DNA of 58,160 bases, taken from the IMG/VR virus record IMGVR_UViG_3300032898_000006, positions 1-58,160 of that record; one strand, given 5' to 3'. The notes under the pieces were generated by a model. The model saw nothing but the letters and a program-made list of their open reading frames with translations. It was not told the DNA's origin and made no database searches. Of this stretch, positions 10,189 to 51,311 are shown one piece after another (the stretch's first letter is position 1; each line of letters opens with the position of its first letter). The DNA is from a virus. The position numbers were made by a program, and so were the translations under genes.

Positions 10189-10369
10189 AGTAACTCTCAC
10201 CTGCGTGAGCGCCGAGGACGCGCGGATCGTCGCGGCCGAGGCGAACAAGGACGGCGATCCGGCGCACCGGTCGAAAGCGCCCTGCAGAAACCCCCTTGCA
10301 GGTCACAGGAGGATAGGAAGTTATGGAGCAGATCTCGAAGCGGCTGTTCAATTGGGCGTCGATCCTTGA
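10181..10369 (+). CDS. Small hypothetical protein overlapping rtcB start
   Basis: GTG at 10181 is coupled to the upstream stop. The first 30 residues (MAEVTLTCVSAEDARIVAAE) look coding; the rest less so. The frame runs 47 nt into rtcB, which itself has a strong ribosome-binding site, so the true 3' end may differ from what was made in the ancestor. Confidence 0.35.
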   Translation: MAEVTLTCVSAEDARIVAAEANKDGDPAHRSKAPCRNPLAGHRRIGSYGADLEAAVQLGVDP

Positions 10370-14462: not shown

Positions 14463-16148
14463 TCACGCACGACTGTCCCGCCGCAGGTCAAGCCCGGTTC
14501 GAGTCGGGAGGGAAACCACCGCATTGTCATGATCTGGTGAGATTCTGGAGACCGGTTTGATTTTCCGGGCCTCCGCGCGCTCGAGAAGCATCGCGTCGAG
14601 GACCGCGACGGGGGAGCGGGGCGACAGCGCGAGGCGCGCGTCGAGCGCCCTCTCGTGCTCCGCGGCCATCATCGCGGCGAGCTCCTCCCTCATGTTGCCG
14701 GTCACGTGACGGTAGGCTCCCGACACCCCGGGGATGTCGTGCCGCAGGTGCGTCTCGGCCATGATGTGCGGGATCCGGTTCCCCTCCATCAGCGTCCGCA
14801 TCGAGTGCCGGGCCATCAGGTGCGGGGTCAGGCCCGGGGCGACCGGCTCCCACCGCACCGTGGCCCGGCTGATCGCCCGCGGCCCGCGCAGCCGGGTCCC
14901 CGGCCACTCGCCGCCGAGCGGCACCGGCCGCTTCGGCAGCCCCCGCCCGGCCGGGGGCAGCTCGCCGGTCGCCGCGGCCTTCACGATGCCCTCGAACGCG
15001 CTGCTGCGCCAGTGCCACGCCGGGTCCGCAGCCAGGGCGCGGCGGGCGAAGCCGGTCGCCGCCGCGGTCTCCTCGACCCGCTTGCGCGCCGCCGCCGATA
15101 TCCCGGCCGCGCCCGTCAGCGCCTTCCGCGCGGTGGTCGGCGACACGCCCGCGATCGCCGCCACGTCGGCGAGGGTCACGGCGCCGGCCGGGGCCCGCCC
15201 GCCGGCGGGGACGCCGAACCCCCGGAACAGGTAGGCGAACCCGTGGCACGGGCACTTACGGGCCGGGCGGGACGCGGCGAACGCCTCGAGCATCGCCGTC
15301 ATGAACGGGGCGAGGATCACGTCCCCGAACGAGTTGTCCTTCGGCGGGCAGCGCAGCAGGCCCCCGGGCGCCTCCGCCCGCATCGTCGCCGCGACGTCCG
15401 TCTCGCCCTCCCTCGCCTGCTGGAGGTCGAGCTGGTGCAGCTGCCACTCCACCCGCAGCCCCTCCGGCCGGAGGTACCGCCGCTCGAGGCCGATGAGCTC
15501 GCCTAGGCGCAGCGCCCCCCAGAACGACGCCTGGCCCATCACGAACTCCTGGTCCTGGCCGGTGAGGATCGCCATCCGCTCGGATATCAGGAGCACGCCA
15601 AGGGCGTCGGTGAACGGCTTCTCCGGGCCGCGGCCCTTGCCCTTGTCCGCCCGCTTGCCGCGGTTCCCCTTCCGGCGCGCCGGGTTCTGGCTAATGATCT
15701 CGGGCACCGCGTCCTCGAGGCAGGTGTGAAGGGTGCCGCGCCAGGTGGCGATGCTCGCGGGCATCTTGCCCCCCTTGCGCTCTTTCATCTCCCAGGCGCC
15801 GATCATCGCCTCGGTGATGTCGGCCAGGCGCACCGCGCCGAACTCCCTGAGGAGGTGATCGTCTAGGTGCCGCCTGCGACCCGCCATCGTCGACCAGGCC
15901 AGGTTCAGCCCCCCGTACCATTCCTCGGCCCACTCGGCGAAGGTCATCTCGGACGCCGGCTTGACAACCCGGCCGTTGCGGACGTCGGACTGACTGTCCT
16001 CGGCGGCGTTCTTCGCGTCCTGCTTGAGGGAGAACCGGATGACGTCGCCGTTCCCGTCGCGGACGCTGACCCAGCCCCCGGCCGCGTCCCTGTACCGGCC
16101 CCGCCAGTAGTCGCCCCTCGGGGACGGCACTCTCTCCGCGTACGCCAT
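14463..16148 (-). CDS. int: Tyrosine integrase with inserted LacI-type HTH
   Basis: Serves phage integration at an attachment site. The 561-residue product has an N-terminal AP2-like DNA-binding region, a SAM-like core-binding domain (TFAEWAEEWYGG onward), and a catalytic domain with R214 (GALRLGELIGL), H443 and R447 (HLMARHS) and Y479 (SGAYRHVT). Between the first Arg and the HxxR box lies a complete LacI-family helix-turn-helix (residues about 324-375: VTLADVAAIAGVSPTTARKA, then ISAAARKRVEETAAATGFAR). The gap between the two boxes is about 230 residues, roughly 100 more than usual. Start at 16148 shares one base with the repressor stop (TGATG), so repressor and integrase are co-transcribed. 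Confidence 0.9.
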   Translation of the reverse strand: MAYAERVPSPRGDYWRGRYRDAAGGWVSVRDGNGDVIRFSLKQDAKNAAEDSQSDVRNGRVVKPASEMTFAEWAEEWYGGLNLAWSTMAGRRRHLDDHLLREFGAVRLADITEAMIGAWEMKERKGGKMPASIATWRGTLHTCLEDAVPEIISQNPARRKGNRGKRADKGKGRGPEKPFTDALGVLLISERMAILTGQDQEFVMGQASFWGALRLGELIGLERRYLRPEGLRVEWQLHQLDLQQAREGETDVAATMRAEAPGGLLRCPPKDNSFGDVILAPFMTAMLEAFAASRPARKCPCHGFAYLFRGFGVPAGGRAPAGAVTLADVAAIAGVSPTTARKALTGAAGISAAARKRVEETAAATGFARRALAADPAWHWRSSAFEGIVKAAATGELPPAGRGLPKRPVPLGGEWPGTRLRGPRAISRATVRWEPVAPGLTPHLMARHSMRTLMEGNRIPHIMAETHLRHDIPGVSGAYRHVTGNMREELAAMMAAEHERALDARLALSPRSPVAVLDAMLLERAEARKIKPVSRISPDHDNAVVSLPTRTGLDLRRDSRA

Positions 16149-16657
16149 CAGCCGCCGCCTTTCTCGTCGCGCTCCCTGATCCTGTCCGCCTCGGCGAGCG
16201 CGAGCTCGGCCGTGCAGTCCTCGATGTCCTCGGCGATCCCGCGGGCGGCCTCGGCGACGCGGGGGAACTCCGACTTCGCGCCGCGCTCCGCGGTGCGCGC
16301 GGCCGCGTCGCGGGCGTCGTCGAGCCGCGCCTTGGCGAGGGCGAGCTCGCGCCACGCCCCGCGAAGCCGGGCGGAGGCGGCGGCGGCCATCTCCCGCTCC
16401 GCCGCCTCCGGGGCCGACCAGGTGAAGCGGTCCGTCGTCACTCCGAGGATCGCCGCGAGGGCCATCGCCTCGTAGAAGGAGACGGACCGGTCGCCCGCCT
16501 CGACTCTGGTGACCGTGTTCTGGTGCCACGGGTAGCCCTGCGCGGCCATGCGCGCGGCGAGTTCCCGCTGGCCCATGCCGCGCCGCTCGCGGGCGGCGCG
16601 GAGGTTCTCGCCGAACGCCTTCTTCTCCGCGAGGAGCCGCTCGTCATCCGATGACAT
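16148..16657 (-). CDS. XRE-family repressor (CI-like)
   Basis: 169 residues. The N-terminal HTH reads FGENLRAARERRGMGQRELA, then ARMAAQGYPWHQNTVTRVEA; the remainder is a helical, charged domain suited to oligomerisation rather than a peptidase-type domain. Divergent from the Cro-like gene and in front of the integrase, the standard immunity arrangement. A minus-strand TAATGT ends 7 nt before the ATG, so the message is predicted leaderless, as for many lysogenic repressors. Confidence 0.8.
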   Translation of the reverse strand: MSSDDERLLAEKKAFGENLRAARERRGMGQRELAARMAAQGYPWHQNTVTRVEAGDRSVSFYEAMALAAILGVTTDRFTWSAPEAAEREMAAAASARLRGAWRELALAKARLDDARDAAARTAERGAKSEFPRVAEAARGIAEDIEDCTAELALAEADRIRERDEKGGG

Positions 16658-27483: not shown

Positions 27484-30030
27484 TCAGGTGTTCCGGGAGG
27501 CGCGGGCGGACCACATCTGCCGGGCGGCCGACGATGACCAGAGCTGCCGGGCGGGGCCGGCGGACCAGAGCTGCCGGGACGCGAGGGCCGTGAAGACGAT
27601 CCCGACGCCCGCCCCGCCGGTGACATCCGGCGCCGGGAACGCGGCCGAGGCGGCGATCGCGGCGGGGATGACAGTGGTCCCCGCGGTGACGGCGGGCGCC
27701 GGGAAGCCGGCGGTCCCGCTGAGCGACGGCGCGGTGATGACCGTCCCGGCGCTCATCCCGGCCGCCGGGAACGCGGCGGTGCCGGGCAGGGCGCCGGCGG
27801 TGACCGTCGCGCCCGCGCCCGTGACGGCGGCGGGGAACGCGGCGGAGGCGGCCAGCGCCGCCGGGGTGATGGTCGTCCCTGACCCGGTTGAGACAGTCGG
27901 GGCGGGGAACGACACGGTTCCGGCGAGCGCAGCAGGGGTGACGGTCTCGCCTGCGCTGACTTGCGGGGCGGGGAATCCGGCGGTGCCGCTCAGCGCGCCC
28001 GGGGCGACCCCGGACCCGGCAGCCGGCGCGGCCGCGGGGAATGATGCGCTCGCGGTCAGCGGGCCGGCGGCGGCGGTCTCGCCCGAGGAGGGCGCCGGGG
28101 CGGGGAACGCGGAGCCGACGGCCAGGACGGCCGGGGCGACGGTGGCGCTGCCCCCGGCGGAGATCGACGGGACGGGGAACGCGGCGGAGCACTGCAGCAG
28201 GGCGGCCGTGAGGTTCGCGTCCGCGCGGAAACTCACCGCGGGGAACGCGGCGGACCCGGAGAGCGCGGCGGGGGCGGCGCCCGACCCTGCGGACACGGCG
28301 GCCGCCGGGAACGCGGCGGAGCCGTCCAGCGCCGTCGCGGTGGCGCCCGACCCTGCCGCCACCGTGGCTGCGGGGAAGGCGGCGCTGCCCGCCAGGGCGG
28401 CGGGGGCGGCGCCGCTGCCCGCGCCGACCGCGGGGCCCGGGAACGCGGCGGAGGCGGCCAGGGCTGCCGGGGCGGCGGTCTCCCCGGCGGCGATCGTGAC
28501 GGCGGGGAAGACTGCGGAGGCCGCCAGCAGAATGCTGGCGATGATGGCGTCTGCCCGGAGCGCGGCGGCGGGGAACGCGGCGCTGCCTGTCAGGGTCGCG
28601 GCGGTCAGGTTCGCGTCGGCGCGGATGCCCGGCGAGGCGAAGGAGGCCGAGCCGGCGAGGACCGCGGGCGTGACAGCGGCTCCGCCGCCCGCGGTGACCG
28701 TCGGGGCGGGGAACGACACGGCGCAGGGAAGCGCGGACGGCGAGACGCCGGAGCCCGCGGCGACGGCCGGGGCCGGGAACGACGCCGGGCCGGCCAGAAC
28801 CGCCGCGGCGGCCGTCTCGCCGGCGCTGACCGCCGGCGCGGTGAAGGAGGCGGACCCCGCCAGCAGCGTCATGGTGACGGTCTCGCCGGCGCTGACCGAA
28901 GGGGGCGGCAGCGCGATCGTCCCGGCCAGCACCGACGTCGTGAGGATCTCGTCGGCCCGCAGCGACGGCGCCGGGAAGCCGGCGGAGGCCGCCAGCGCGC
29001 TTGTCGTGACGGTCTCGCCGGCCGTCACCGCGGCGGCGGGGAACGCGGCCGAGGCCGCCAGCGTCGCCGGCGTGATCGTGGCGCCCGCGGTCACCGCGGC
29101 GGCCGGGAAGCTCGCGGACCGGGCCAGGACGGACGGCGTGACGGTCGCGCCCGCGCTCACCGTCGGCGACGGGAACGAGACCGAGCCGGCCAGGACGGCC
29201 GTCGTCACGGTCTCGTCGGCCTCGACCGCCGGCGGCGCGAAGGACACCGATCCTGCGAGGACCGGGGGGGCGGCCGTGGCGCCGACCCCGTACGGCGGCT
29301 GCACCGGCAGCGGGACGATCATCCGCGGGAAGGCCATCGGGGAACTGCGGCCCGGCGGGAGCGCCACCGGGCACGCGACGGCCTGGGAGGCGGCGGCCGG
29401 GGCCGCCAGGATGATCGTCGCCCCGACAGCCCAGTTGCCGGTGCTCAGCGTGCCGGAGTACGTGACGGTGCCGCTGCTGACGAGCTGGTACCCGCAGATC
29501 CCGAAGTCGGAGGACATCTGGGTGAGGTTCGTCCAGCCGCCGCCGCTCTGGCTGACGGTCTGGCCGAATCCGACGCAGCAGGCGACGGCGATGCCCGTGC
29601 CCGTGGCGCTGCCGGTGGCGCCCGAGCTGAACGTGCCGCTGGAGCCGCCCGCCGACGCCGCGGCCACCGTGGTCGGGCTCGCGCCGAGCGCGGCCACCTC
29701 GATGCCCCACGTGCCGGTCGCGCCGCTGCCGAAGTCGGTGCCGTTGGTCACGCTGAGGCCGACCGCGGCGCTCCCGCCGACCACGTTCGGCATCAGCCAG
29801 CCCGTCGAGTACGCGACGGAACTGGCGCCGAAGTTCTCCGACCACAGCTGGGACGACCCGGCGACCGACGCCCCGTTGAACGTCGGCGCCGAGCTCGACA
29901 TGGCGGTCGTGCTGTTCGCGGCGGTGGCGAGCAGCACGACGCTGCTGCCGGCGGTGACGTTAGAGCCGAACGACCCCGACCAGCTGCTGCCGGACTGGTT
30001 GATGATCGCTGACTGGACGACCAGGGCCAT
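27484..30030 (-). CDS. Large repeat protein: 25 copies of a 22-residue unit
   Basis: 848 residues. An N-terminal region of about 240 residues, Ser/Gly/Thr-rich and beta (SSWSGSFGSNVTAGSSVVLL), resembles a virion surface domain. It is followed by 25 consecutive units of the form ALAGSAAFPAPAVSAGETVT-PA, nearly all 22 residues (four have two extra), and a C-terminus with three RQLWS repeats. Start at 30030 overlaps the previous stop (TGATG). Probably an exposed fibre or appendage; function inferred only from position. Confidence 0.75.
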   Translation of the reverse strand: MALVVQSAIINQSGSSWSGSFGSNVTAGSSVVLLATAANSTTAMSSSAPTFNGASVAGSSQLWSENFGASSVAYSTGWLMPNVVGGSAAVGLSVTNGTDFGSGATGTWGIEVAALGASPTTVAAASAGGSSGTFSSGATGSATGTGIAVACCVGFGQTVSQSGGGWTNLTQMSSDFGICGYQLVSSGTVTYSGTLSTGNWAVGATIILAAPAAASQAVACPVALPPGRSSPMAFPRMIVPLPVQPPYGVGATAAPPVLAGSVSFAPPAVEADETVTTAVLAGSVSFPSPTVSAGATVTPSVLARSASFPAAAVTAGATITPATLAASAAFPAAAVTAGETVTTSALAASAGFPAPSLRADEILTTSVLAGTIALPPPSVSAGETVTMTLLAGSASFTAPAVSAGETAAAAVLAGPASFPAPAVAAGSGVSPSALPCAVSFPAPTVTAGGGAAVTPAVLAGSASFASPGIRADANLTAATLTGSAAFPAAALRADAIIASILLAASAVFPAVTIAAGETAAPAALAASAAFPGPAVGAGSGAAPAALAGSAAFPAATVAAGSGATATALDGSAAFPAAAVSAGSGAAPAALSGSAAFPAVSFRADANLTAALLQCSAAFPVPSISAGGSATVAPAVLAVGSAFPAPAPSSGETAAAGPLTASASFPAAAPAAGSGVAPGALSGTAGFPAPQVSAGETVTPAALAGTVSFPAPTVSTGSGTTITPAALAASAAFPAAVTGAGATVTAGALPGTAAFPAAGMSAGTVITAPSLSGTAGFPAPAVTAGTTVIPAAIAASAAFPAPDVTGGAGVGIVFTALASRQLWSAGPARQLWSSSAARQMWSARASRNT
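27540..29260 (-). repeat. 66-bp coding repeat array
   Basis: About 25 imperfect 66-bp repeats encode the 22-residue units of the large protein. Copies have diverged at the DNA level but keep the Leu-Ala-x-Ser-Ala-x-Phe-Pro core. Confidence 0.75.
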
Positions 30031-30215
30031 CAGGCCGGCCAGCCATCCCAGCAGCCCTTGCACCCGTGGATCGCGGGGTCCGCCGGGCGCAGGCCGAGAT
30101 CCTTGGAGCCGAGCTCCCGGATCGTGGCCTGGACGTGGGCGGCGCACGCGTAGATTTCCACCGGGCTCGGCTGCATCCTGATGACGGCTGTCACCGCGGG
30201 AACCTCGCGACCCAT
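30030..30215 (-). CDS. Hypothetical protein (61 aa)
   Basis: ATG at 30215. Contains YACAAHVQATI and a C-terminal IHGCKGCWDG with a CxxC. Coupled to the repeat-protein gene. Unrecognised. Confidence 0.55.
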   Translation of the reverse strand: MGREVPAVTAVIRMQPSPVEIYACAAHVQATIRELGSKDLGLRPADPAIHGCKGCWDGWPA

Positions 30216-33484: not shown

Positions 33485-34345
33485 TCAGCCGGTGCGGAAC
33501 GATGCAGTCGCATAGCAGAAAGCGCGCACATTCGCCCCGCCGGGCCCGCTGGCGACGACGTGAGCCGTGAACGCCTCGCCCTGCGGCAGCGACCCGCCCT
33601 CCCATGGCGCCGACGACCGGGCCGTGCGCGGGTAGGACGGGACCAGCGTCGACCGGTCGCACACCGCCCCGGCGTAGATGTAAATCGCGTACTCGGCGGG
33701 ATCGGGAAGGCCGGGGGTGCCGGGCGGCTCCCACTCGAGGCGGACCGATGTCCGCCCGCCGAACGCGCGCAGGCTCCGCGGCCTCCCGTACGTCGGGTCG
33801 GCCGGGGGCGGCGCAGGCTTCCCGGAGACCGCCTCGAGCCACGGGACGGAGAAGACGTCAACGTCGTACAGACCTGCGTCCCGCCACTGGACCCCGACGA
33901 CGGGGAACGGCCCGGACGCGTTCGCGACGAGGGCGACCGCCTCCGCCTCGGTGAGGCTGTAGTCCGCGATGATCAGCCCGGCCGACGTCACGCCCCCGGC
34001 GATGAACGCGTTGACGAGGCTCGTGACGCTGTCCATCGACGCGTACCCGGCGGGCCTCCGCTGGCCGGGGCGCTTGGCCGACTCCCAGTCCGCGAGCGCC
34101 CTCCGGTACCAGCCCGGGGCGTCAGCCGGGGTAGCCGCCCCGGACTCCACGTCGAGGACGTCGGCGGTCGGGTCGGCGGCGTCCGGGTCTTGGTCGACCC
34201 GCAGCGCCCCCGGGCGGGCCTTCCAGTCGGCGTCCGTCCAGATCACCCACGGGGAGCCCGTCGCGTAGCCCATCGCCTGCCCGGCCGGGAGAGACCCGAT
34301 GTTGCCGTGGGTTGCGTCGTAGCCGGGAGTCGTCGCGATGCTCAC
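33485..34345 (-). CDS. GH25/DUF1906-like glycosidase-fold protein
   Basis: 286 residues. Residues 1-165 read as a TIM-barrel of the GH25-like type: ATTPGYDATHGNIGSLP, VLDVESGAATPADAPGWYRR (with an Asp-x-Glu catalytic-like pair) and VVGVQWRDAGLYDVDVFSVP. A Pro-rich linker leads to a C-terminal beta domain resembling fibronectin III (SVRLEWEPPGTPGLPDPAEY). GTG start overlaps the channel gene end. Candidate endolysin or virion hydrolase; activity unproven. Confidence 0.6.
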   Translation of the reverse strand: MSIATTPGYDATHGNIGSLPAGQAMGYATGSPWVIWTDADWKARPGALRVDQDPDAADPTADVLDVESGAATPADAPGWYRRALADWESAKRPGQRRPAGYASMDSVTSLVNAFIAGGVTSAGLIIADYSLTEAEAVALVANASGPFPVVGVQWRDAGLYDVDVFSVPWLEAVSGKPAPPPADPTYGRPRSLRAFGGRTSVRLEWEPPGTPGLPDPAEYAIYIYAGAVCDRSTLVPSYPRTARSSAPWEGGSLPQGEAFTAHVVASGPGGANVRAFCYATASFRTG

Positions 34346-34710
34346 AGGCCATCCCCTTCGCCGCGCTCGGGGCGGCTCTCATCCCGGGCGGCTAGCGCCC
34401 GGTCAACGTGGTCGCCGACCTTCTCGGCGTGCCTGTCGAGTTGATGCCCGACGCGCTTGTGAACATGGGCGGCGGTCGCGGCCGCAAAGGACCCGCCGAG
34501 GCACGGGATCGCGGTCAGCATCATCACGACCGCCGCGATATGAGCCGCCCCGGTGCGGGGCGTCACGTCGCCGTACCCGACGGTGGACGCGGTCGCGACC
34601 GCCCAGTACAGCGCGAGCCAGAAGCTCACATGGTCCGTGAGGCTGAACGCGGCCGCCCCGCCGAGCACGCACGCGAGGGCTGCGGCGGCGAGGATCACTG
34701 CGCGCCTCAC
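34342..34710 (-). CDS. Two-TM potassium-channel-like protein
   Basis: 122 residues: TM1 (RAVILAAAALACVLGGAAAF), pore helix (FWLALYWAVATAS), selectivity filter TVGYGD, TM2 (IAAVVMMLTAIPCLGGSFAA), then a charged His-rich cytoplasmic tail (HVHKRVGHQLDRHAEKVGDH). The order and TVGYGD filter match minimal KcsA-type channels. Overlaps both neighbours by 4 nt, so it is translated with the GH25-like and membrane proteins. Possible roles: membrane depolarisation at lysis or superinfection effects (inference). Confidence 0.88.
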   Translation of the reverse strand: MRRAVILAAAALACVLGGAAAFSLTDHVSFWLALYWAVATASTVGYGDVTPRTGAAHIAAVVMMLTAIPCLGGSFAAATAAHVHKRVGHQLDRHAEKVGDHVDRALAARDESRPERGEGDGL

Positions 34711-35075
34711 CGGGACGCCCGCTCGAGGTGCTCGCGGTGCAGGCGGTGGATCAGGTCAAGGCGCGGTCTCCGCCCGTCCATGTCGGGGTGGTGGCGGTGG
34801 CAAAGGCGGAAAAGGTTCCCTGCGGCCGGGTACTTCCCCAGTCGCAGGCACCACGGGCTCGCATGGCATGTCCGGTGCCAGTACAGCAGGACGCCGAGCG
34901 CCGCCCACTCGAAGATCTGCAGTCCCCCGGCCTGCCCGCTCCACCAGCCGTAATAGCCGCCCGCCTCATCGCGGTTCCCGGTCAGGACGAAGAACTCGTC
35001 CCGCACGTGCGGCCACCATGCGACGACAGGAGCGATGACGGCGGCGAGGACGACGACGGGCAGGGAACGGCGCAC
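34707..35075 (-). CDS. Small membrane protein with His-rich tail (122 aa)
   Basis: GTG at 35075 is preferred because GAGGGGAG lies 5-6 nt upstream; a GTG at 35090 is the alternative. Two hydrophobic segments (LPVVVLAAVIAPVVAWWP; IFEWAALGVLLYW) and a tail RLCHRHHPDMDGRRPRLDLI. Holin-like size and position in a cluster of membrane genes. Function unknown. Confidence 0.6.
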   Translation of the reverse strand: MRRSLPVVVLAAVIAPVVAWWPHVRDEFFVLTGNRDEAGGYYGWWSGQAGGLQIFEWAALGVLLYWHRTCHASPWCLRLGKYPAAGNLFRLCHRHHPDMDGRRPRLDLIHRLHREHLERASR

Positions 35076-35086
35076 GACGGCTCCCC

Positions 35087-35506
35087 TCACAGGAGCGAGG
35101 CGGCGAGGCACAGCAGCGCGGCGGCGATCAGGATGGCGAACGTCTGCGCCCAAGCCAGCAGCCCCTTCTCCGGGCGGAGCACGGCGATCACCGACGCGAC
35201 CCCGGCGACAAGGGCGAGCGACGAGACCATGGCCGTGATCCCGCTCGCGAGCAGGTACGGGACCGCCGGGGCGACGCAGGCCGCGAACGCGGCGCCCCCG
35301 TTGGCGAGCGCCGGGGCGAGCCCGGCCTTCTCATCAGACAGCCACGCCCCGGCCGTCATGCCGACGAGCTCCGCGAGAGCCGCCCCGAGCGCGGCCCGGA
35401 ACAGGGCGTGAGGCTGGCCCGAGAGGCTCACCAGGAGACCGAGGACGAGCGTCACCCCGTCTGCCGCGCCGAACGTCGCCGCGCTTTTCAAGGCCGGGAG
35501 CTTCAC
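35087..35506 (-). CDS. VIT/CCC1-like membrane protein
   Basis: 139 residues, four to five TM segments. GAADGVTLVLGLLVSLSGQP and ALAELVGMTAGAWLSDEKAG resemble the first helices and the conserved G-x-x-D-G and small-residue motifs of VIT1/CCC1 iron/manganese transporters, but it is about half their length. It may alternatively be a holin. Coupled to a 39-residue ORF upstream by ATGA. Confidence 0.5.
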   Translation of the reverse strand: MKLPALKSAATFGAADGVTLVLGLLVSLSGQPHALFRAALGAALAELVGMTAGAWLSDEKAGLAPALANGGAAFAACVAPAVPYLLASGITAMVSSLALVAGVASVIAVLRPEKGLLAWAQTFAILIAAALLCLAASLL

Positions 35507-35622
35507 GTGCCCGCGTCCAGGGTGACGGCGAGCCCGTCCGCCTCGGGGAGCGGGAGGCTGTCTGGTGCGCCGAGCTCCCGCAAACTCGGCGCACCAGGCT
35601 TCGAAGAGACGTGAACCCTCAT
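35503..35622 (-). CDS. 39-residue ORF with internal hairpin
   Basis: Starts with ATGA overlap to the upstream gene and ends with ATGA overlap to the downstream one, so it fits the operon. The peptide has a duplicated GAPSLRELGAP element created by a perfect inverted repeat in its DNA. May be a coupling or leader peptide. Confidence 0.5.
   Translation of the reverse strand: MRVHVSSKPGAPSLRELGAPDSLPLPEADGLAVTLDAGT
35562..35597. repeat. Perfect 13-bp inverted repeat
   Basis: CTGGTGCGCCGAG and CTCGGCGCACCAG separated by 10 nt, inside the 39-residue ORF. A transcript would form a strong hairpin upstream of the VIT-like gene, possibly tuning expression within the lysis cluster. Confidence 0.8.
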
Positions 35623-36026
35623 GAGGACCCCCAGTCGGGCGTCCCGTCGCCGCCCCCGGCGAAGACCCGGCCGCCTCTGACGAGGCCGAGCGGGTTGCGG
35701 GGCTTGCCGCCGTGGATCTCGTTGGCCTCGGCTGTCCGTTGAATCTGGAAATCGACCGGCAGACCGGTGCGCGAGGCGAGGTAGGCGCCGACCGACAGGC
35801 ACAGCAGTTCCCAGCGCTCCCGGGTCGGGCAAGCTGCGGCGAACTCGTCGTCGTCGAGCATGAGGCGCACGTCCACGTCGCGGTACGACCCGGCGTCGCC
35901 GTAGCCGGCCGTGCCGACGAGGTAGGGATGCTCCCCGCCGAACGCCCGGCTGATCACCTGGCACGCCTGGTCGAGGTGGTAGAGCTCTGTGGTGGTGAGC
36001 AGGGCGGTGCGGGTCTTGGAGGTCAC
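35619..36026 (-). CDS. Putative nucleotidyltransferase-fold protein (135 aa)
   Basis: GTG at 36026 overlaps the upstream stop (GTGA). Contains YLVGTAGYGDAGSYRDVDVR, a G-x-G...D-x-D pattern typical of Pol-beta-type nucleotidyltransferases, and LPVDFQIQ, a plausible third carboxylate. Substrate unknown; it may be a tRNA/antibiotic/MNT-like transferase. Assigned by motif only. Confidence 0.5.
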   Translation of the reverse strand: MTSKTRTALLTTTELYHLDQACQVISRAFGGEHPYLVGTAGYGDAGSYRDVDVRLMLDDDEFAAACPTRERWELLCLSVGAYLASRTGLPVDFQIQRTAEANEIHGGKPRNPLGLVRGGRVFAGGGDGTPDWGSS

Positions 36027-36706: not shown

Positions 36707-37224
36707 TTCGCCGCCGCCGGTCCGCCGAGGAATTCCCAGTCGGCCCGCGCATACCGATCAAGCAGCCACGCAGGGTACGTAACCGAGTGAATGCCGCTTC
36801 CGGGCCAGCGGTGGTGCCGATCGCAGAGGATAAGCAGCCCAGCCTCGCTCTCAGCAAAGCGTAGAAAATCCTCGTCCGAGTGGAGCCCCGCCTGCGGGAA
36901 GTCCCTGGCGACCTTCTGCCAGTCGATCTCGTTCAGCCCGGAGAACTCCGCGACGGCATGGTGCGCCTCGAGCTGCGTCGCGCCTGAGCAGCGATGGCCG
37001 TCGGGAAGCCCGGCCTTGATCTGCGCGAGGGTCGCGCCGCCTATCCAGCAGCCCACGCCGAGGACGTGCACCAGGTGGTGCTTTGCCGCGTTGAAGATCT
37101 TGTAATGCGGATCCGACTCGCGGGGGCCGTGCGCCGGATAGGCGACCACCTCCCGCAGGGTGCGGCGCTCATAGTGCGCTCCGGCCTGCTCGTGCGCGGC
37201 TACCACGCGGTCAGGCAGCGCCAT
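36703..37224 (-). CDS. HNH-like zinc-binding protein (173 aa)
   Basis: GAGGAGG upstream of ATG 37224. The pattern CSGATQLEAHHAVAEFSGLN ... LLILCDRHHRWPGSGIHSVT has paired Cys and HH motifs, as in HNH-type treble-clef proteins of actinophages. It may be a packaging-associated or homing nuclease; the tight operon overlap argues for a resident gene. Confidence 0.6.
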   Translation of the reverse strand: MALPDRVVAAHEQAGAHYERRTLREVVAYPAHGPRESDPHYKIFNAAKHHLVHVLGVGCWIGGATLAQIKAGLPDGHRCSGATQLEAHHAVAEFSGLNEIDWQKVARDFPQAGLHSDEDFLRFAESEAGLLILCDRHHRWPGSGIHSVTYPAWLLDRYARADWEFLGGPAAAK

Positions 37225-37597
37225 CGGGTGCCTCCTCGTCCTGCGGCGGGGGGATGGCCGCCGTTCCGCGGTGATCCCGTTCGGGCAGCGGCCCCATCCG
37301 CAGGAAAACGAGGCATCTCCAGGCCATCACCGGGGACACGAGACCGATGAGCGCAACGTCCGCCCAGGCGGCGATCCTCGAGTCGACCCTGTTGAGGTTC
37401 CAGAACAGGGACATGATCTGCGGGACGAACAGGCCGGCGATGAGGAGCGCCTCGATGATGAGGCTGAGCCCGATCGGGTTGCGCCAGGCGCCGCCCCTCG
37501 TGAGCCGGCTGTAGAGCGCCACCCAGGCGAGGATGATGATCCCGCCGGAGATGAGCCCTATCTTCAGCAGCGCGATGATCCACTGCTCTTGCGTGAT
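37211..37597 (-). CDS. Small membrane protein, apparently AUC-initiated
   Basis: The frame reads ITQEQWIIALLKIGLISGGI, IILAWVALYSRLTRGG, then two further hydrophobic helices (IGLSLIIEALLIAGLFVP; ADVALIGLVSPVMAWRCLVF). There is no ATG, GTG or TTG until 37522, which would cut off the first helix. An ATC at 37597 lies 6 nt after a perfect AAGGGGTGA ribosome-binding site, so I place the start there. Read-through of the upstream in-frame TGA (37606-37604) is the alternative. Likely a holin-class or membrane accessory protein. Confidence 0.55.
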   Translation of the reverse strand: MTQEQWIIALLKIGLISGGIIILAWVALYSRLTRGGAWRNPIGLSLIIEALLIAGLFVPQIMSLFWNLNRVDSRIAAWADVALIGLVSPVMAWRCLVFLRMGPLPERDHRGTAAIPPPQDEEAPDGAA

Positions 37598-37603
37598 GGC
37601 CGA

Positions 37604-37831
37604 TCACCCCTTCTGGTGACGTGCGACGATATCGGCGGCGATCGTCGAAGCGAAGTGGTTGCGGGCGGCGAGCGACGTGATGTCGGCTCTGACCGCGGCG
37701 GCGTGCGCGGCTGACCGCAGCGACCGCTCTTTCTCCCCGCGCGCCCGGTCGACGGCGGCGCGGCGCTGGCTGCGAGACGGCCACGGGAGCACGGCGTCCA
37801 TGGCCCTCCTGAGGGCGGCGAGCGGCGTCAC
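37604..37831 (-). CDS. Basic hypothetical protein (75 aa)
   Basis: GTG at 37831 overlaps the upstream gene (4 nt). Arg/Ala-rich and helical (RRAMDAVLPWPSRSQRRAAV). Ends in ARHQKG at a TGA in frame with the following membrane-protein frame. Unrecognised. Confidence 0.55.
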   Translation of the reverse strand: MTPLAALRRAMDAVLPWPSRSQRRAAVDRARGEKERSLRSAAHAAAVRADITSLAARNHFASTIAADIVARHQKG

Positions 37832-38088
37832 GGGCTTCCGCCGTGGCCTGTGGTGAGGTCGCGTCCGTACTGGATCGCGGCGAGGATGTCGCGGGTCGCG
37901 GACGCGGCGGTGACGGCGGCGTTAGCCCGGTCCCGCTCGGCCTCGAGCGCCGCCTTGAGCTCTTTGTTTTCCTCGCGGAGATCCTCGATCACCCCGCGGG
38001 GGAATATCACGCCGAAGATGAACAGCAGGCAGAAGACCCCGCACACCCCGGACCCGGTGAGGATGGTGATCAGAGTGCTGTCCACCAA
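37828..38088 (-). CDS. TM plus coiled-coil protein (86 aa)
   Basis: One N-terminal TM helix (GVCGVFCLLFIFGVIFPRGV) then a coiled coil (IEDLREENKELKAALEAERD, RANAAVTAASATRD). Topology resembles small spanin- or Rz-like or holin-accessory proteins. TTG 38088 or GTG 38085 start. Confidence 0.55.
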   Translation of the reverse strand: MVDSTLITILTGSGVCGVFCLLFIFGVIFPRGVIEDLREENKELKAALEAERDRANAAVTAASATRDILAAIQYGRDLTTGHGGSP

Positions 38089-44592: not shown

Positions 44593-47500
44593 TTATGACA
44601 TTCTAACCTTGACGCCCGCCTGCGGCAGGATCTTCGTGGCGACGGCCTTCCCGATCCTGTTCACTAGAATGTTCACGTCCGAGTCGGACATCACCGTGTT
44701 GCCGTAGACGTTGATGTTTATCACCGGCCCGCCCGTCCCTGCGCCCCCCGCGCCGCCGCCGGCGGCGCTGAGCGCGAGCCCGCCCAGGCTCCCGGACGTC
44801 CCCGTCGTCACCGACCCGGCGAGCGCGTGCGCCGCCGCGACGACCTCGCCCTTCCCGGCGGTGATCCCCTGCGCGAGCTTCCTCGCGATCGACTTCCCGG
44901 AGTTCGACGGGTCGCCCGCCCCCGACAGCGGCCCCTGCTTGGCCGGGGAGAACGGCAGGAACGACTTGATGGTCGACGCGACTGACCCGATCGCGTTGCC
45001 GATCGAGCCGATCATCGACTTGACCCCGTTGATCAGGCCCTGGATTATCTTCGCGCCGGCCGAGTACAGCAGGCTGCCCACGTCGCCGAGGGCGGACAGG
45101 ATCCGGCCGGGGATCGACTTGACGAACGACAGCATGTCGCCCGCCTCGTCGCGGACCGCGCCGGTCGCGTCGTCCCACCAGCCGCGGAACAGCGACCCGA
45201 GCTTCCCGAACCAGCCGAGTACCGAGCGTATTTCCGAGATGTCGCCGGTGATCAGGAATTTAACGTACGACCAGGCGGCGTTCACGATCTTCATGATCAG
45301 GGCGTGCGCCGCCCGGATATCGGAGGTTATGTTCGACCAGATGGCCTTGACGAAGGCCGTTATCCCGGACCAGGCGGCCTTCGCCCCGGCGACGATCGCG
45401 TCCCAGACGGCGACCGCCGCCTTCTCGATATCCGACCAGTACTTCACGATCAGGACGACCGCGGCGATCACCGCGAGGACGATCAGGCCTATCCCGAGGA
45501 GCATCGCCGCGTTCGCCGCGATCCACGCGGCCATCGTGATGGCCGCCCCGGCGACGTTGCTGGCGACGATCATCGCGACCTTCGCGATCGTCTGGGCCAC
45601 CCACACCGCCGCCCCGGCGACCTGCTGCGCCCCGGCCGCTATCCACGCCCCCGCGGTGGTAGCGGCGGCGGCCACGTTGGACGCGACGACCGACGCGACC
45701 TTGACGGCCTGCCCGGCTACCCATGACGCGGCCGAGGCGATCTGCCGCCCGGCGGCGGCGAGCCACGACGCGGACGACTCCGCGGCGGCCTCGTCGTTCG
45801 CGGCCGCCGCCTCCTCGGCGGCGCCCTCCTGGACGCCGGCGGCCTCGGTCGCGGCCTCCTCCTGCGCCGCCGCCGCGGACTCGGCCGAGGCGGCCTGCGT
45901 GCCGGCGGTCTCCTTGGAGATGATCCCGAGCGCCTTGAGAGTCGCCTGCACGGTTTTCACGGCGCCGCTGACCGCGTCGAAGGCCTTCTTCGCGATCGCG
46001 ATGACGGCGACCACGGCGGCGATCGCGGTGACGCTGGCGAAGATGACCTCGGTCAGGGTCTTGTGCTTCGCGGTCCACTCGGCGATCGGGATGATGACCT
46101 TCGTCACCGCCGACATGACGGCGGTCACCGCGGGCAGCAGGGCGGAGCCGATCGCGATGCCGGTGTTCTCGATGCCGGTCTTCGCCTGCGAGATCTTGAA
46201 GTTGAAGGTCCCCTGGATCGTCGACCAGTTGTCCACCTGGCCGCCGCTCTTCTTCGCCGCGTCGCCGATCACCTTCACGTTGTTCGCGAACGTCCCCGAC
46301 GACTTCCCCGACAGCATCAGCGCGGTGTTCAGCCCGGTGGCGCCGCCCATCATCTTCGCGAGCGCCGCGGTGTAGGTCTGCGCGGCGGGGCCGCCGGCGG
46401 TCAGCAGCGAGTTGAACCCGTGGGCCTTCCCCGCCACGGACGCGAACTGGTCGGCCATCGTCTTGGCGGTGAGCGGCAGCCCCTTGGTCGCGTTGTACCA
46501 GGTCGTGTAGCTGGTGCCGCCGTCGAGGTAGGACTTGGACACCGACTGGATCGACGGCGGCAGCTTCGCGAGCATGGTCTGCGCGTCCTGCGCCGCCGAC
46601 GTGCTCTGGTTGAACGCGTTCATCAGGACTTCGCCGGACTTGCCCATGTGGGTCGTGATGGCGGTGGTCAGCTCGCCGATCGTCCCGGTGAGCCCCTCCT
46701 TGCCGAGGTTCTTCGCGACGGTCTGGCTGTTCAGGCCGAGCTGGTTCATCTCGCCGATCGCGACCGAGTTCGGGTTCGACAGCGACCGGATGGTGTTCGC
46801 GAGGTCCTGCGTGGACTGCTGCGCGGACATCCCCTGCGACGTCATGGTCGCGATGGCGCCGCCGACCTGCGCGAAGCTCAGGCCGACCTTCGCCGCGAGC
46901 GGCGCCACCGACGACATCGACGACGCGAGGTCCTGCATCTTCATGTCGCCGGCGCCGACCGTCGCGATGATCTCGTTCATCATCGACGCGGACCGCTGGG
47001 TGGCGTTCGACGCGTTGGTCGTGGACCCGTAGTAGGCGTTCATCGTGCCGACGAGGGTCTTCGACACGGTGTCGAGGTCGGCGCCGCCGACTTTCGCGCC
47101 CTCCGCCGCTATCTTCAGCATGTCGAGGCCGGTCTGGGCGTGGAACCCGCCGGACTCGATGTGGTACATCGCGTTGGTGATGTCGCTGGCGCTGGTGGCC
47201 GTCGCGGTCGACACCTGCAGGATCCCGGCCTGCACCATGCCGAGCTTCGACGCGGACTCGCCCGCGTCGGTCACCAGGTGAGTCGTCGAGTCCTGGAAGT
47301 TGCCCGCGGCCTTGACCATGACCGCCGCGGCGACCCCGAGGCCGAGGGCGGTGATCCCGGCGACCTTCCCCATGGTGCCGAGGCTGATCCCGCCCGCGTC
47401 GGAGGCGTCCTTAACGGCGACGGTGCTGGCCGCCGCCTCGTCGTTCTTCGCCGCCGCCGCCACGGCGGTGTCGGACTGGACCTTCTGCGCGTCCGACACG

Positions 47501-47901
47501 GCCTTCGCCGCCACGGCGGCGTCCCGCTGCGCGGCGGTCAGCCGCCCGCTCGCGGCGATCAGCGCGTCAGTCGACGCCGTGTCGTCATCCGCCGCCCCGG
47601 CCGCCGCCCGCTGGGCGTCCAGCAAGGCCGTCTCCGCGTCCGCCAGGGCCTTAGCGGACTCGGCCGCCTTCGCCTGCGCGGCGTCCACCCGGGCCGTCGC
47701 CAGGTCCAGGGCGTCCGCCCCGGAGGCGGTATTCAGCAGCGACTCGTCGATCGCGTCGCCCGCGCCCCTGGCGGTCTCCGCCGCCTTCGTGGCGGACTCA
47801 CTGAACTTGCCGAGAGACTCGTCGATCTTCGCGAAGATCTCCGACGCCGCGTCCCTGGCCTCGAGGATCGCCAAAATCGTGAAGGACTCGGCGCCTGCCA
47901 C
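44593..47901 (-). CDS. Tape measure protein
   Basis: 1102 residues, the longest gene. The N-terminus is a long Ala/Asp coiled coil (about 20-170). Then comes a hydrophobic segment (VAGITALGLGVAAAVMVKAA) and the phage TMP core (STTHLVTDAGESASKLGMVQ; MYHIESGGFHAQTGLDMLKI; AAPLAAKVGLSFAQVGGAIA), an Ala-rich region with several TM-like helices around residue 800 (LLGIGLIVLAVIAAVVLIVK), and a C-terminal region with SIPGRILSALGDVGSLLYSA and FLPFSPAKQGPLSG. It sets siphovirus tail length. GTG start. Confidence 0.93.
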   Translation of the reverse strand: MAGAESFTILAILEARDAASEIFAKIDESLGKFSESATKAAETARGAGDAIDESLLNTASGADALDLATARVDAAQAKAAESAKALADAETALLDAQRAAAGAADDDTASTDALIAASGRLTAAQRDAAVAAKAVSDAQKVQSDTAVAAAAKNDEAAASTVAVKDASDAGGISLGTMGKVAGITALGLGVAAAVMVKAAGNFQDSTTHLVTDAGESASKLGMVQAGILQVSTATATSASDITNAMYHIESGGFHAQTGLDMLKIAAEGAKVGGADLDTVSKTLVGTMNAYYGSTTNASNATQRSASMMNEIIATVGAGDMKMQDLASSMSSVAPLAAKVGLSFAQVGGAIATMTSQGMSAQQSTQDLANTIRSLSNPNSVAIGEMNQLGLNSQTVAKNLGKEGLTGTIGELTTAITTHMGKSGEVLMNAFNQSTSAAQDAQTMLAKLPPSIQSVSKSYLDGGTSYTTWYNATKGLPLTAKTMADQFASVAGKAHGFNSLLTAGGPAAQTYTAALAKMMGGATGLNTALMLSGKSSGTFANNVKVIGDAAKKSGGQVDNWSTIQGTFNFKISQAKTGIENTGIAIGSALLPAVTAVMSAVTKVIIPIAEWTAKHKTLTEVIFASVTAIAAVVAVIAIAKKAFDAVSGAVKTVQATLKALGIISKETAGTQAASAESAAAAQEEAATEAAGVQEGAAEEAAAANDEAAAESSASWLAAAGRQIASAASWVAGQAVKVASVVASNVAAAATTAGAWIAAGAQQVAGAAVWVAQTIAKVAMIVASNVAGAAITMAAWIAANAAMLLGIGLIVLAVIAAVVLIVKYWSDIEKAAVAVWDAIVAGAKAAWSGITAFVKAIWSNITSDIRAAHALIMKIVNAAWSYVKFLITGDISEIRSVLGWFGKLGSLFRGWWDDATGAVRDEAGDMLSFVKSIPGRILSALGDVGSLLYSAGAKIIQGLINGVKSMIGSIGNAIGSVASTIKSFLPFSPAKQGPLSGAGDPSNSGKSIARKLAQGITAGKGEVVAAAHALAGSVTTGTSGSLGGLALSAAGGGAGGAGTGGPVININVYGNTVMSDSDVNILVNRIGKAVATKILPQAGVKVRMS

Positions 47902-48644: not shown

Positions 48645-49628
48645 TCAGCCGGTGTAGGCGGTCGCGACGTCGTTGACGACGACTGCCTGGATGGTGTACT
48701 CGCTGCCGCCGCTTAGCGGCCGGCTCGCCTCCCACGTCCAGCTGCTCATGATCACGTCGTCAAACTTGACATCTGCCCCGAACTTGGACATAACGACCTG
48801 CGGGCAGTTGAACGTGACCGACGCCCCGCTCCCCCCGGGGTGGGTGAACCCGAGCGACAGCGCCCCGAGGGTCTGGTCGAGCATCGTGGTGAAGTCGCCG
48901 TACGTGGCGGCGTTCAGCGACGTCCACACCACGTCGCAGGTGCCGCTGACGTGCAGCGACACGGGGGTGATGAACGACGGCCCGTGCTCGCCCGAGTACG
49001 TCCACGTCTCCTTGAGGCCGTTGTCGATGTCGAGCGTCACGTTCGTGATGTCCGCGCGCGCGCTCCCGCCGAGGGAGAACGACGCCTCGGAGAACACCCA
49101 CGGCAGCTCGTTCGTCACGCTGATCGCGGTCGGGGTGGTGAGGATCGCCACCGACTGGCCGGACATGTCCGCGCTGATCATCACCGGGTCGTTGCCGGCC
49201 GGGGCCTTCACCGAGAACTTCCCGACCCGGCAGCCCGCGAACTGCAGGCTCTGGTAGTTGCCGAGGTTCTTCTCGACCGTCAGCGACGCGAGCGTGTTGG
49301 CCTGGCTCAAAGTGTGCGTGTAGGAGGGCGAGGAGCCGGTGACCGCGTCCGTGCCGATCGCCGCGACCAGCAGCGGGATCGCGTTCGAGGGGAACAGCGG
49401 CCCCTCGATCGTCCCGACGTTCTTCGCCTCGCCCTCGAGGTTGAAAACCTGCTTGTCCCGGTCGCCCATCATCAGCGTCGGGGAGAACCAGCCCGGGTCG
49501 TACTCCATCCCGTTGCTGGTCATGGGGAGAAATGTGGTCGCGCTGACCGCTTCCCCGAAGTCGGTCTCCACCGCGAAGCCGGTGGCGGACAGCGATCCTG
49601 GGCGCTCTGTTAGGGCTGGGTAAGCCAC
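48645..49628 (-). CDS. Major tail protein
   Basis: 327 residues from GTG 49628, with AAAGGAGGAG 5 nt upstream. MAYPALTERPGSLSATGFAV, then TSNGMEYDPGWFSPTLMMGD, NLEGEAKNVGTIEGPLFPSN and WTWEASRPLSGGSEYTIQAV: a mixed beta protein of tail-tube size, placed between connectors and chaperone genes. A frame extending upstream to 50039 runs through the plus-strand moron and is not coding there. Confidence 0.8.
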   Translation of the reverse strand: MAYPALTERPGSLSATGFAVETDFGEAVSATTFLPMTSNGMEYDPGWFSPTLMMGDRDKQVFNLEGEAKNVGTIEGPLFPSNAIPLLVAAIGTDAVTGSSPSYTHTLSQANTLASLTVEKNLGNYQSLQFAGCRVGKFSVKAPAGNDPVMISADMSGQSVAILTTPTAISVTNELPWVFSEASFSLGGSARADITNVTLDIDNGLKETWTYSGEHGPSFITPVSLHVSGTCDVVWTSLNAATYGDFTTMLDQTLGALSLGFTHPGGSGASVTFNCPQVVMSKFGADVKFDDVIMSSWTWEASRPLSGGSEYTIQAVVVNDVATAYTG

Positions 49629-49694
49629 GGCGCTCCTCCTTTGCTCTGGTGCGTGCGTGGGCGGGGCGCGTGCCGGGAATGGCATGCTGGCGGC

Positions 49695-50069
49695 ATGGAC
49701 GAGACAGGCGAGATCGCGGCGTTCTACGCGGCGAGGCTCGACGAGGAAGAGGCGCGAGCATGGGCCGTCCACGACGTGGGGCAGTGCGACGCGCTCTTGT
49801 ACGCGGAAGACATGGCGGACGCGGCTCGCCGTGACCCTGACTGCAACTGCGGCCGCCCTGCCCGCACGCTGCGCGAGATCGCGGCCAAGCGGCGCATCGT
49901 CGCCGACTGCGAGCGGGCCATGAGCAGGCAGCCGGGGTTCAACGCCGGCCATGCCCGGTACGGGTCGCCGTTCCCGGCGCCACACGCCAACCTGGCGTTC
50001 CGGACGCTCATGTCGCTCGTGTCCGCCTACGACAAGCACCCGGAGTACAAGCCGGGGTGGAAGCCGTGA
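49695..50069 (+). CDS. DUF6221-like moron protein (124 aa)
   Basis: Begins FYAARLDEEEARAWAVHD, later DCNCGRPARTLREIAAKRRI and VSAYDKHPEYKPGWKP. This pattern (acidic helix, KRRIV helix, final HPEYxxxW) resembles DUF6221 proteins of actinomycetes and their phages. Plus-strand gene between minus-strand structural genes, with a -10-like CATGCT 6 nt before the ATG. Confidence 0.65.
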   Translation: MDETGEIAAFYAARLDEEEARAWAVHDVGQCDALLYAEDMADAARRDPDCNCGRPARTLREIAAKRRIVADCERAMSRQPGFNAGHARYGSPFPAPHANLAFRTLMSLVSAYDKHPEYKPGWKP

Positions 50070-50620: not shown

Positions 50621-50863
50621 CTACTCGCCTTCGGCGCCTTCGGCGCCGTCCGCGCCGCCGTCGCCCTGCGCGGCGGCGCCCTTGGGCTTCCGCTTGCCGC
50701 TGGCCGTCACGGGCTCGACGTCCGCCCTGCGGGTGTACCGGCCGGCGTCGGCCGCCGGGACCTCGAACTCCGCCCCGGGTTCTACCTCGCCGATGCCGTG
50801 GTGGGTGAACGTGGTCGGGTGGCCTCCGGTGTACCGGAGCCGCACCCGTTCGTTACTCGACAA
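50621..50863 (-). CDS. Small head-tail joining protein (80 aa)
   Basis: VRLRYTGGHPTTFTHHGIGE and VEPGAEFEVPAADAGRYTRR is the pattern of short beta proteins between tail completion and major tail genes of actinophages. Acidic low-complexity tail (GGADGAEGAEGE). Overlaps the upstream gene by 11 nt. Confidence 0.6.
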   Translation of the reverse strand: MSSNERVRLRYTGGHPTTFTHHGIGEVEPGAEFEVPAADAGRYTRRADVEPVTASGKRKPKGAAAQGDGGADGAEGAEGE

Positions 50864-51311
50864 TGACGGCCTCCCTCGCGGCGTCGGCGAAGCTCTGCAG
50901 GATCAGGCTCGTCAGCGGCGAGATGGCCCGCTCGGGGAAGTCGTTGGCCTTGGTCCCGGGGTGCTGGACGCTCTTCGCGTACGCGATCGGCCCGTGCCCC
51001 CGGTTCTCGAGCCAGCGCAGCGCCTTCGCGTTCCGGGCGGCGATCGGGTGAGCCCTTGTGCCCCCGATGACGTACGGCAGGTAGGGGACGGTGCCGTAGA
51101 GCACGACCCACATCATCCCCGCGGACGGCTCGAGGCGGGAGCCGATCGACTGCCGGAGGTTCCCCGCGGTCGGCCCGGCGCCGACCGGGGACTGCATCTT
51201 CATCGCCCGGGACGCGAGCGGCTCCACGTCGGCGGCCCACGCCCGGGAGGCGGCCTGCCAGTCGAACTTCAGGCTCCGGTCAGCGCCGGACACCGTCATC
51301 GTCATGCTCAT
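50853..51311 (-). CDS. HK97 gp10-like tail completion protein
   Basis: 152 residues: AADVEPLASRAMKMQSPVGA, GNLRQSIGSRLEPS, VPYLPYVIGGTRAHPI and KANDFPERAISPLTS follow the HK97-gp10 family order (N-terminal helix, SP..TG.LR.S, Y....E.GT..., ......PFL..A). Position agrees. Confidence 0.8.
   Translation of the reverse strand: MSMTMTVSGADRSLKFDWQAASRAWAADVEPLASRAMKMQSPVGAGPTAGNLRQSIGSRLEPSAGMMWVVLYGTVPYLPYVIGGTRAHPIAARNAKALRWLENRGHGPIAYAKSVQHPGTKANDFPERAISPLTSLILQSFADAAREAVIVE

Follow-up and report, generated by a model that had tools for sequence, protein, structure and literature searches.

Organization of the locus

The window, meaning the whole stretch of DNA that was analysed, is the full 58,160-base virus record IMGVR_UViG_3300032898_000006; loci of other contigs are labelled with L-numbers. 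Late genes of the window lie on the minus strand, with tail genes reaching down to position 38324. The tail genes are followed by small membrane-protein genes, by HNH genes and nucleotidyltransferase-like ones, by a cassette on the same strand that includes a predicted potassium channel gene, by a lysin-like gene and by further fibre-like genes. The features considered here are as follows.

33485-34345, minus strand: putative lysin-like, GH25-resembling protein with a C-terminal FN3-like part; overlaps the channel gene by 4 nt
34342-34710, minus strand: K+ channel protein with two transmembrane (TM) segments, 122 aa, GTG start, His-rich helical C-terminal tail (Pfam, PHROG, alignment, AlphaFold)
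34567-34584, minus strand: codons of the selectivity filter, T43-V-G-Y-G-D48 (translation, alignment)
34377-35502, minus strand: interval holding the cassette, replaced in the close relative L232 (DNA comparison)
34707-35075, minus strand: Cys/His membrane protein directly upstream of the channel, two TM segments, Y42..SG, invariant C70/C76/C92/H95, basic C-terminus (alignment, model)
35087-35506, minus strand: mini-VIT-like protein with four TM segments, 139 aa, retaining the D and E..M..GxxLS positions of VIT TM1/TM2, with no cytosolic metal-binding insert (Pfam, alignment)
35619-36026, minus strand: nucleotidyltransferase-like gene that bounds the exchangeable slot and is conserved in L232 and L014 (locus comparison)
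37211-37522, minus strand: small protein with two TM segments and a weak Phage_holin_2 match (E 5e-4, under cut-off; Pfam, hydropathy)
37828-38088, minus strand: membrane protein with one TM segment and a coiled tail, in the same cluster (PHROG search, hydropathy)
44593-47901, minus strand: tape measure (window annotation)
48645-50039, minus strand: tail gene (window annotation)
50853-51311, minus strand: head-tail connector (window annotation)

An initial annotation of this DNA had described a K+-channel-like protein of a tailed phage accompanied by other small membrane proteins. Both points hold. Tape measure, connector and tail genes share the strand of the channel, holin-like and lysin-like genes adjoin, and small membrane proteins are encoded at 35087-35506, 34707-35075, 37211-37522 and 37828-38088. 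The GC content, the types of lysin and the closest cellular pores point to an actinobacterium as the putative host. Elsewhere in the window, residues 133-354 of a 688-aa protein encoded at 14463-16529 on the minus strand give an integrase-type match (phrog_1), and the protein has an additional C-terminal portion; a temperate life style is suggested. The plus strand encodes, at 10323-11525, an RtcB-type RNA ligase that matches the PHROG 'tRNA splicing ligase' at E 5e-136, and two very long opposing open frames of 897 aa (plus) and 887 aa (minus) occupy 27484-30181.

The channel protein is predicted to be a K+-selective pore

The channel protein, translated from the minus strand of 34342-34710, has the sequence VRRAVILAAAALACVLGGAAAFSLTDHVSFWLALYWAVATASTVGYGDVTPRTGAAHIAAVVMMLTAIPCLGGSFAAATAAHVHKRVGHQLDRHAEKVGDHVDRALAARDESRPERGEGDGL; the plus strand of this interval is interrupted by a stop. 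The initial annotation had given a two-TM protein with the exact TVGYGD filter here and no strand, and the translation and the Pfam match agree with it. The protein scored 51.7 bits against Ion_trans_2 (PF07885; E 8e-14, cut-off 22.5) and matched PHROG 14690, 'Kef-type K+ transporter', with E 5e-17, so that at the sequence level its membership of the family is far above chance. Searches of Pfam and PHROG returned ion-channel families only and no canonical holin family, and a sequence search of the PDB matched TOK1, KcsA and MthK. By hydropathy, TM1 (about residues 4-22) is followed by a pore helix, TVGYGD at 43-48, TM2 (about 54-76) and a helical tail.

A structure model had been proposed in the initial annotation as a check. 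The AlphaFold model, for which 28 relatives served as input, reached a pLDDT of 93, with helices at residues 2-26 (TM1), 30-41 (pore helix) and 54-111 (a long helix running from TM2 into the tail); two TM segments flanking a P-loop were thus found by hydropathy and in the model. Foldseek matched the model to KcsA and MthK, and it superposed on open KcsA with an rmsd of 1.3 Å over about 92 columns at about 30% identity. Across 28 aligned relatives, with identity falling as low as 25%, TVGYGD and P69 were unchanged. Only about 45 residues follow TM2, and the Pfam search gave no TrkA match that would indicate a C-terminal RCK (TrkA-N/C) domain. Histidine makes up 11.2% of the channel tails compared with 2.0% of the window proteins. 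Taken together, we consider it highly probable that the window protein is a K+-selective pore, as predicted.

The channel gene is coupled to a gene for a Cys/His protein

The stop codon of the Cys/His gene and the GTG start codon of the channel gene overlap by 4 nt (GTGA), and the same GTGA overlap joins the channel stop codon to the GTG start codon of the lysin-like gene. The Cys/His proteins share the motif Y..(W/F)SG, followed by C-x(4,5)-C and C-x2-H, in which Y, S, C, C, C and H were invariant in 23 sequences. A model of the Cys/His protein (pLDDT 84) begins with helices and has a hairpin towards its C-terminus as well as a further helix; fold searches of the PDB and BFVD with it gave nothing significant, returning matches at E 2-9 only, some of them endonuclease-VII-like.

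A channel-family ORF lies directly downstream of the Cys/His gene in 35 of 37 distinct viral contigs, a census that was seeded from channel-linked Cys/His proteins and is valid for that subfamily. The exact 4-nt overlap of stop and start codons recurs in 31 of 49 distinct pairs. Judging from these arrangements, the channel and Cys/His genes are a conserved gene pair that is predicted to be co-translated.

Four queries (three members of the Cys/His family and a consensus-like sequence) found no match among 50,697 isolated phage records, and, at the sensitivity of the pattern applied, an alignment scan of 84,980 species genomes revealed no relative. When 396 actinobacterial genomes were searched with an HMM, four Cys/His matches were obtained; all belonged to a sister subfamily of the FWSGFGSD type, and no channel lay alongside. 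This sister subfamily (FWSGFGSD...NCHVRGC...CxxHHP) was represented by 55 viral loci (L237-L292), with a channel at 0 of them, a mini-VIT gene at six and an Rv2525c-type lysin-like gene nearby at five. As 55 contigs carry the sister subfamily without a channel, the Cys/His family extends beyond the channel-bearing loci, and its members are not solely channel subunits. We therefore rejected the idea that the Cys/His protein is an obligate channel subunit throughout the family.

Mini-VIT and lysin-like neighbours

A VIT-like protein with four TM segments is encoded beside the Cys/His-channel pair in 17 of 49 cases. The window copy scored 20.8 bits against PF01988, below the cut-off of 28.1, and its L039 homologue scored 30.4, above it. 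Neither the mini-VIT protein nor the lysin-like protein matched any of the 50,697 isolated phage records.

On the other side of the channel gene, coupling to a GH25-like protein had been claimed in the initial annotation. The coupling stands, by virtue of the 4-nt GTGA overlap, and the enzyme label fared less well. The 33485-34345 protein had no Pfam match even at E 0.5 (PF01183/GH25 included), no PHROG match and no meaningful PDB match. It resembles a protein of L148 (BLASTP E 1e-7), which itself matches GH25 at E 0.29; because the protein that it resembles is itself weakly GH25-like, we treat the label as a lead.

The cassette occupies different late positions and is exchangeable

We compared the module, that is, the channel gene with its partner, among metagenomic contigs, which are liable to misassembly and incompleteness. 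The module precedes a lysin-like gene and follows the tail-fibre region in the window, L014, L048 and L016. Elsewhere its position varies: about 10 contigs carry it between the head-tail connector and the tail-terminator gene, about five have it ahead of the terminase, and it follows the major capsid gene in four and adjoins neck genes in four. Among 49 modules, a lysin-like HMM match fell within 1.2 kb of the pair in L048 and L016 only, and within 5 kb in three; alignments throughout are short, and E-values in the locus searches were computed relative to the candidates only. With the lysin-like neighbours of the window and L014, for which the evidence is weaker, about four of the 49 modules adjoin such a gene. 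The 'lysis cluster' of the initial annotation thus describes the window, in which the channel gene adjoins the lysin-like gene, and does not extend to the family, so we rejected the lysis cassette as a general rule. Since most modules lie among connector, capsid and terminase genes, the module is better described as a passenger of the late region with no fixed link to lysis genes.

The clearest evidence that the cassette is an exchangeable unit is its clean replacement in L232. The DNA flanks of this contig are 87-97% identical to the window, and 34377-35502 is swapped for a single membrane-protein ORF (L232:3294-4004). Its product of 236 aa has a weak DUF1003 match and no match in isolated phages, and its gene likewise overlaps the lysin-like gene by 4 nt. 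In L029 and L032, a member of the same family is encoded immediately after the channel. As the lysin-like gene directly follows the exchangeable slot, the cassette may contribute to the timing of lysis in this phage.

The K+ filter was lost repeatedly with gene coupling intact

The filter (T/S)(V/T)GYGD is retained in 36 of 54 distinct module channels and altered in the other 18 (L103-L106, L117-L121, L126, L129-L132, L136, L139, L140 and L151, often with paired Cys). The altered forms are TVGCN/D, TDGCD, TAGCD, TVGGD, TDGGD, TLGGD, TAGAD and TSGNS, with a filter shortened by one residue in 17 of these channels. Counted among partner-linked channel relatives, the K+ filter is lost in 17 of 35. 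On a tree built without the filter columns, five changes were needed, at least three of which are forced by well-supported branches. From their sequences, the altered members cannot form a canonical K+ filter. Their reading frames are open and their coupling is intact, the features by which intactness was judged, together with dN/dS for five pairs, and some still show weak Ion_trans_2 matches. For the pairs compared, dN was 0.03-0.35 compared with dS of 0.10-0.80; the resulting dN/dS below 1 is the signature of purifying selection on the genes compared.

In all 12 'GC' filters, the residues equivalent to W68 and Y78 of KcsA are both Cys. W68 and Y78 are in contact in KcsA, which makes a disulfide staple between the two cysteines plausible, with the correlation of W-to-C and Y-to-C changes resting on three independent pairs only (sign test p 0.25). 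As 17 of 35 partner-linked relatives are without the filter, K+ conductance is not the only possible role of the family. The family forms a natural series in which the K+ filter was repeatedly lost with fold and coupling kept, and it bears on the evolution and loss of K+ selectivity.

Relationship to cellular and other viral channels

The module channels form one clade (support 100/99) apart from 11 other viral channels. A separate tree with cellular channels, of about 90 columns, did not settle the root or a cellular origin of the phage clade. Three members of the clade (L018, L023 and L033) occur without a Cys/His partner and adjoin MazG-like and other small genes, not structural genes. The nearest cellular pores found were actinobacterial two-TM channels of about 320-340 aa with a C-terminal TrkA_N/RCK domain (for example, L153 and L158), and identity between the phage channel and the closest cellular pore reached 66% over 47 residues. 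None of 80 bacterial channel loci had a Cys/His gene beside the channel, and no VIT-like or Cys/His partner was found beside the channels of isolated phages or a VIT-like partner at the 80 bacterial loci. We infer that the phage channel may have lost the cellular gating domain, with a phage partner in its place.

Proposed function and alternatives

Starting from the sequence, the predicted fold, the conserved filter, the conserved, overlapping gene pair and the cassette replacement, all of which the analysis shows, we propose that the channel ORF encodes the pore subunit of a K+-selective channel, which would assemble as a tetramer and conduct K+. It would be made late, co-translated with the Cys/His protein and often accompanied by the mini-VIT protein, as part of a mobile and exchangeable phage cassette, and would insert into the host membrane with its N- and C-termini inside. 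The His-rich tail, the Cys/His partner or both would sense pH or metal and open the K+ conductance, and the late conductance would set the membrane voltage as well as K+ and turgor. Timing or easing of lysis would be the likeliest use in this phage, since the slot lies directly before the lysin-like gene, and superinfection exclusion would come next. We give this account of a late, exchangeable, co-translated K+-conductance module with pH or metal gating, taken as a whole, a probability of about 0.55. Filter loss in 17 of 35 relatives counts against it, as the module may work without K+ selectivity or those proteins may differ in role.

How the conductance would serve the phage can be read in several ways. 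An open K+-selective pore moves the membrane voltage in the direction of the K+ equilibrium potential, and whether this is depolarising depends on the K+ outside. Since the equilibrium potential need not depolarise a soil bacterium, the proposal of the initial annotation that the channel depolarises the membrane to trigger holins does not follow. A broader version, in which the channel collapses or shifts the voltage and thereby fires holins or times lysis, draws on the overlap with the lysin-like gene in the window, on GH25 or Rv2525c-type lysin-like genes after the module in L048, L016 and, weakly, L014, on the other membrane protein that L232 has in the slot ahead of its lysin-like gene and on the weak holin-2 match at 37211-37522. 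Such a trigger is nonetheless rather unlikely: about four of 49 modules adjoin a lysin-like gene, the majority being located near connector, capsid or terminase genes, a K+-selective pore alone does not abolish the voltage, and half of the relatives are without the K+ filter. Exclusion cassettes are typically small, exchangeable membrane genes, as the genes of this module are. Replacement by an unrelated membrane protein in L232 is what would be expected of arms-race genes, and the filters have diversified repeatedly. A change in voltage or turgor could block injection by a second phage, by analogy with what has been reported for chlorovirus Kcv (PMC7019647). However, expression from the late operon would come too late for most superinfection, and Kcv works from a virion membrane, which tailed phages do not have, so we regard exclusion as a little less probable still than a lysis trigger.

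Two further readings seem to us improbable, to much the same degree. As a moron or auxiliary metabolic gene, the channel could aid K+ or metal homeostasis of the host, or its response to osmotic stress, during lysogeny. The integrase match in the window, the VIT-like relative of metal transporters alongside the channel and the 6-TM channels of host-like type that Lactobacillus phages carry close to repressor and integrase genes are in keeping with this, as is the reading of desert-soil virus K+ channels as extremotolerance genes (PMC8269230). However, the window cassette lies within the late structural strand and not in a lysogeny region, its relatives lie in head-tail operons, and the sampled actinobacterial genomes contained no channel-linked module. 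Alternatively, the pore fold could be a scaffold, for example an anchor or regulator for the Cys/His protein, whose function is independent of K+ conduction and whose ancestral filter is being lost. That the filter is shortened or changed in 18 of 54 channels and in at least three lineages, with the compared genes under purifying selection and coupled in the same way, fits this view, as do the paired cysteines of the 'GC' filters. Set against it is the strict retention of TVGYGD, SVGYGD or TTGYGD in the other 36 channels, including that of the window, at 25-60% overall identity, a pattern not easily accounted for unless K+ is conducted.

We retain the K+-conductance module as our working account. 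The channel's travel through many uncultivated phages as an exchangeable unit, with one or two other small membrane proteins, suggests that the electrical or ionic state of the host membrane is altered late in infection. More tentatively, and at somewhat less than even odds, the module may be a dedicated ion-control cassette of uncultivated tailed phages, in which a pore akin to that of actinobacterial RCK channels, without the host regulatory domain, is placed under a Cys/His partner that is specific to phages and binds metal or responds to redox state, often with a mini-VIT protein, and in which a cysteine-stapled, shorter loop would have taken the place of the K+ filter in several lineages to give new pores.

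Comparison with known systems

The initial annotation had held that viral K+ channels are known mainly from algal viruses. Channels of isolated phages, catalogued in 2018 with their function called speculative (Myrna (gp260), Phabba, BillNye, vibriophages, PLE/PLE2 and ME3; PMC6163359), correct this picture, as do annotated phage matches, and the class itself is thus not new. Like the window protein, these channels (PHROG 14690) are small, with two TM segments and a K+ filter, PLE2 being longer. They differ in that they are single genes in tRNA, nucleotide-metabolism or lysogeny regions, fall in a separate clade and have no Cys/His or VIT partner that we could see. The Lactobacillus phages PLE2 and JNU_P5 (L110 and L111) encode longer ion transporters of the 6-TM type beside repressor or antirepressor genes, with an integrase gene also in PLE2; these are a different, host-like class of phage channel. 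K+ channels of soil viruses have also been mentioned (PMC8269230).

Kcv of chloroviruses, for which effects on voltage, turgor and exclusion have been proposed (PMC7019647), is likewise a viral miniature K+ channel. However, Kcv has 82-94 aa, resides in the internal membrane of the virion and acts at entry into algae. Channels of the Kcv type are shorter than 100 aa, with no cytosolic tail and a virion with an internal membrane, whereas the window channel has 122 aa and a helical tail and is surrounded by tailed-phage genes.

The mini-VIT protein and its relatives align with TM1-TM2 of VIT1/CCC1 (PF01988) and retain the Asp and Glu/Met positions, but the phage protein has 139 aa and is without the metal-binding cytosolic insert, and the window copy falls under the cut-off. 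Among cellular channels, the actinobacterial two-TM-RCK proteins are the closest pores, although they carry TrkA_N/RCK and have no Cys/His neighbour. With KcsA and MthK the phage channel shares the two TM segments, the pore helix, TVGYGD and an aromatic pair at the pore helix; unlike them it is phage-encoded, has a short His-rich tail in place of an RCK domain and is predicted to be co-translated with a Cys/His protein. In the open-access literature we found no description of a channel with Cys/His and VIT-like partners, none of such genes being exchanged as a cassette and none of relatives that have lost the filter. What is new here is the arrangement, in which a channel with conserved partners, predicted to be co-translated, forms an exchangeable cassette. 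Phage K+ channels have so far been orphan genes for which no partner was proposed, and the conserved partner and slot turn them into a testable two- or three-gene system.
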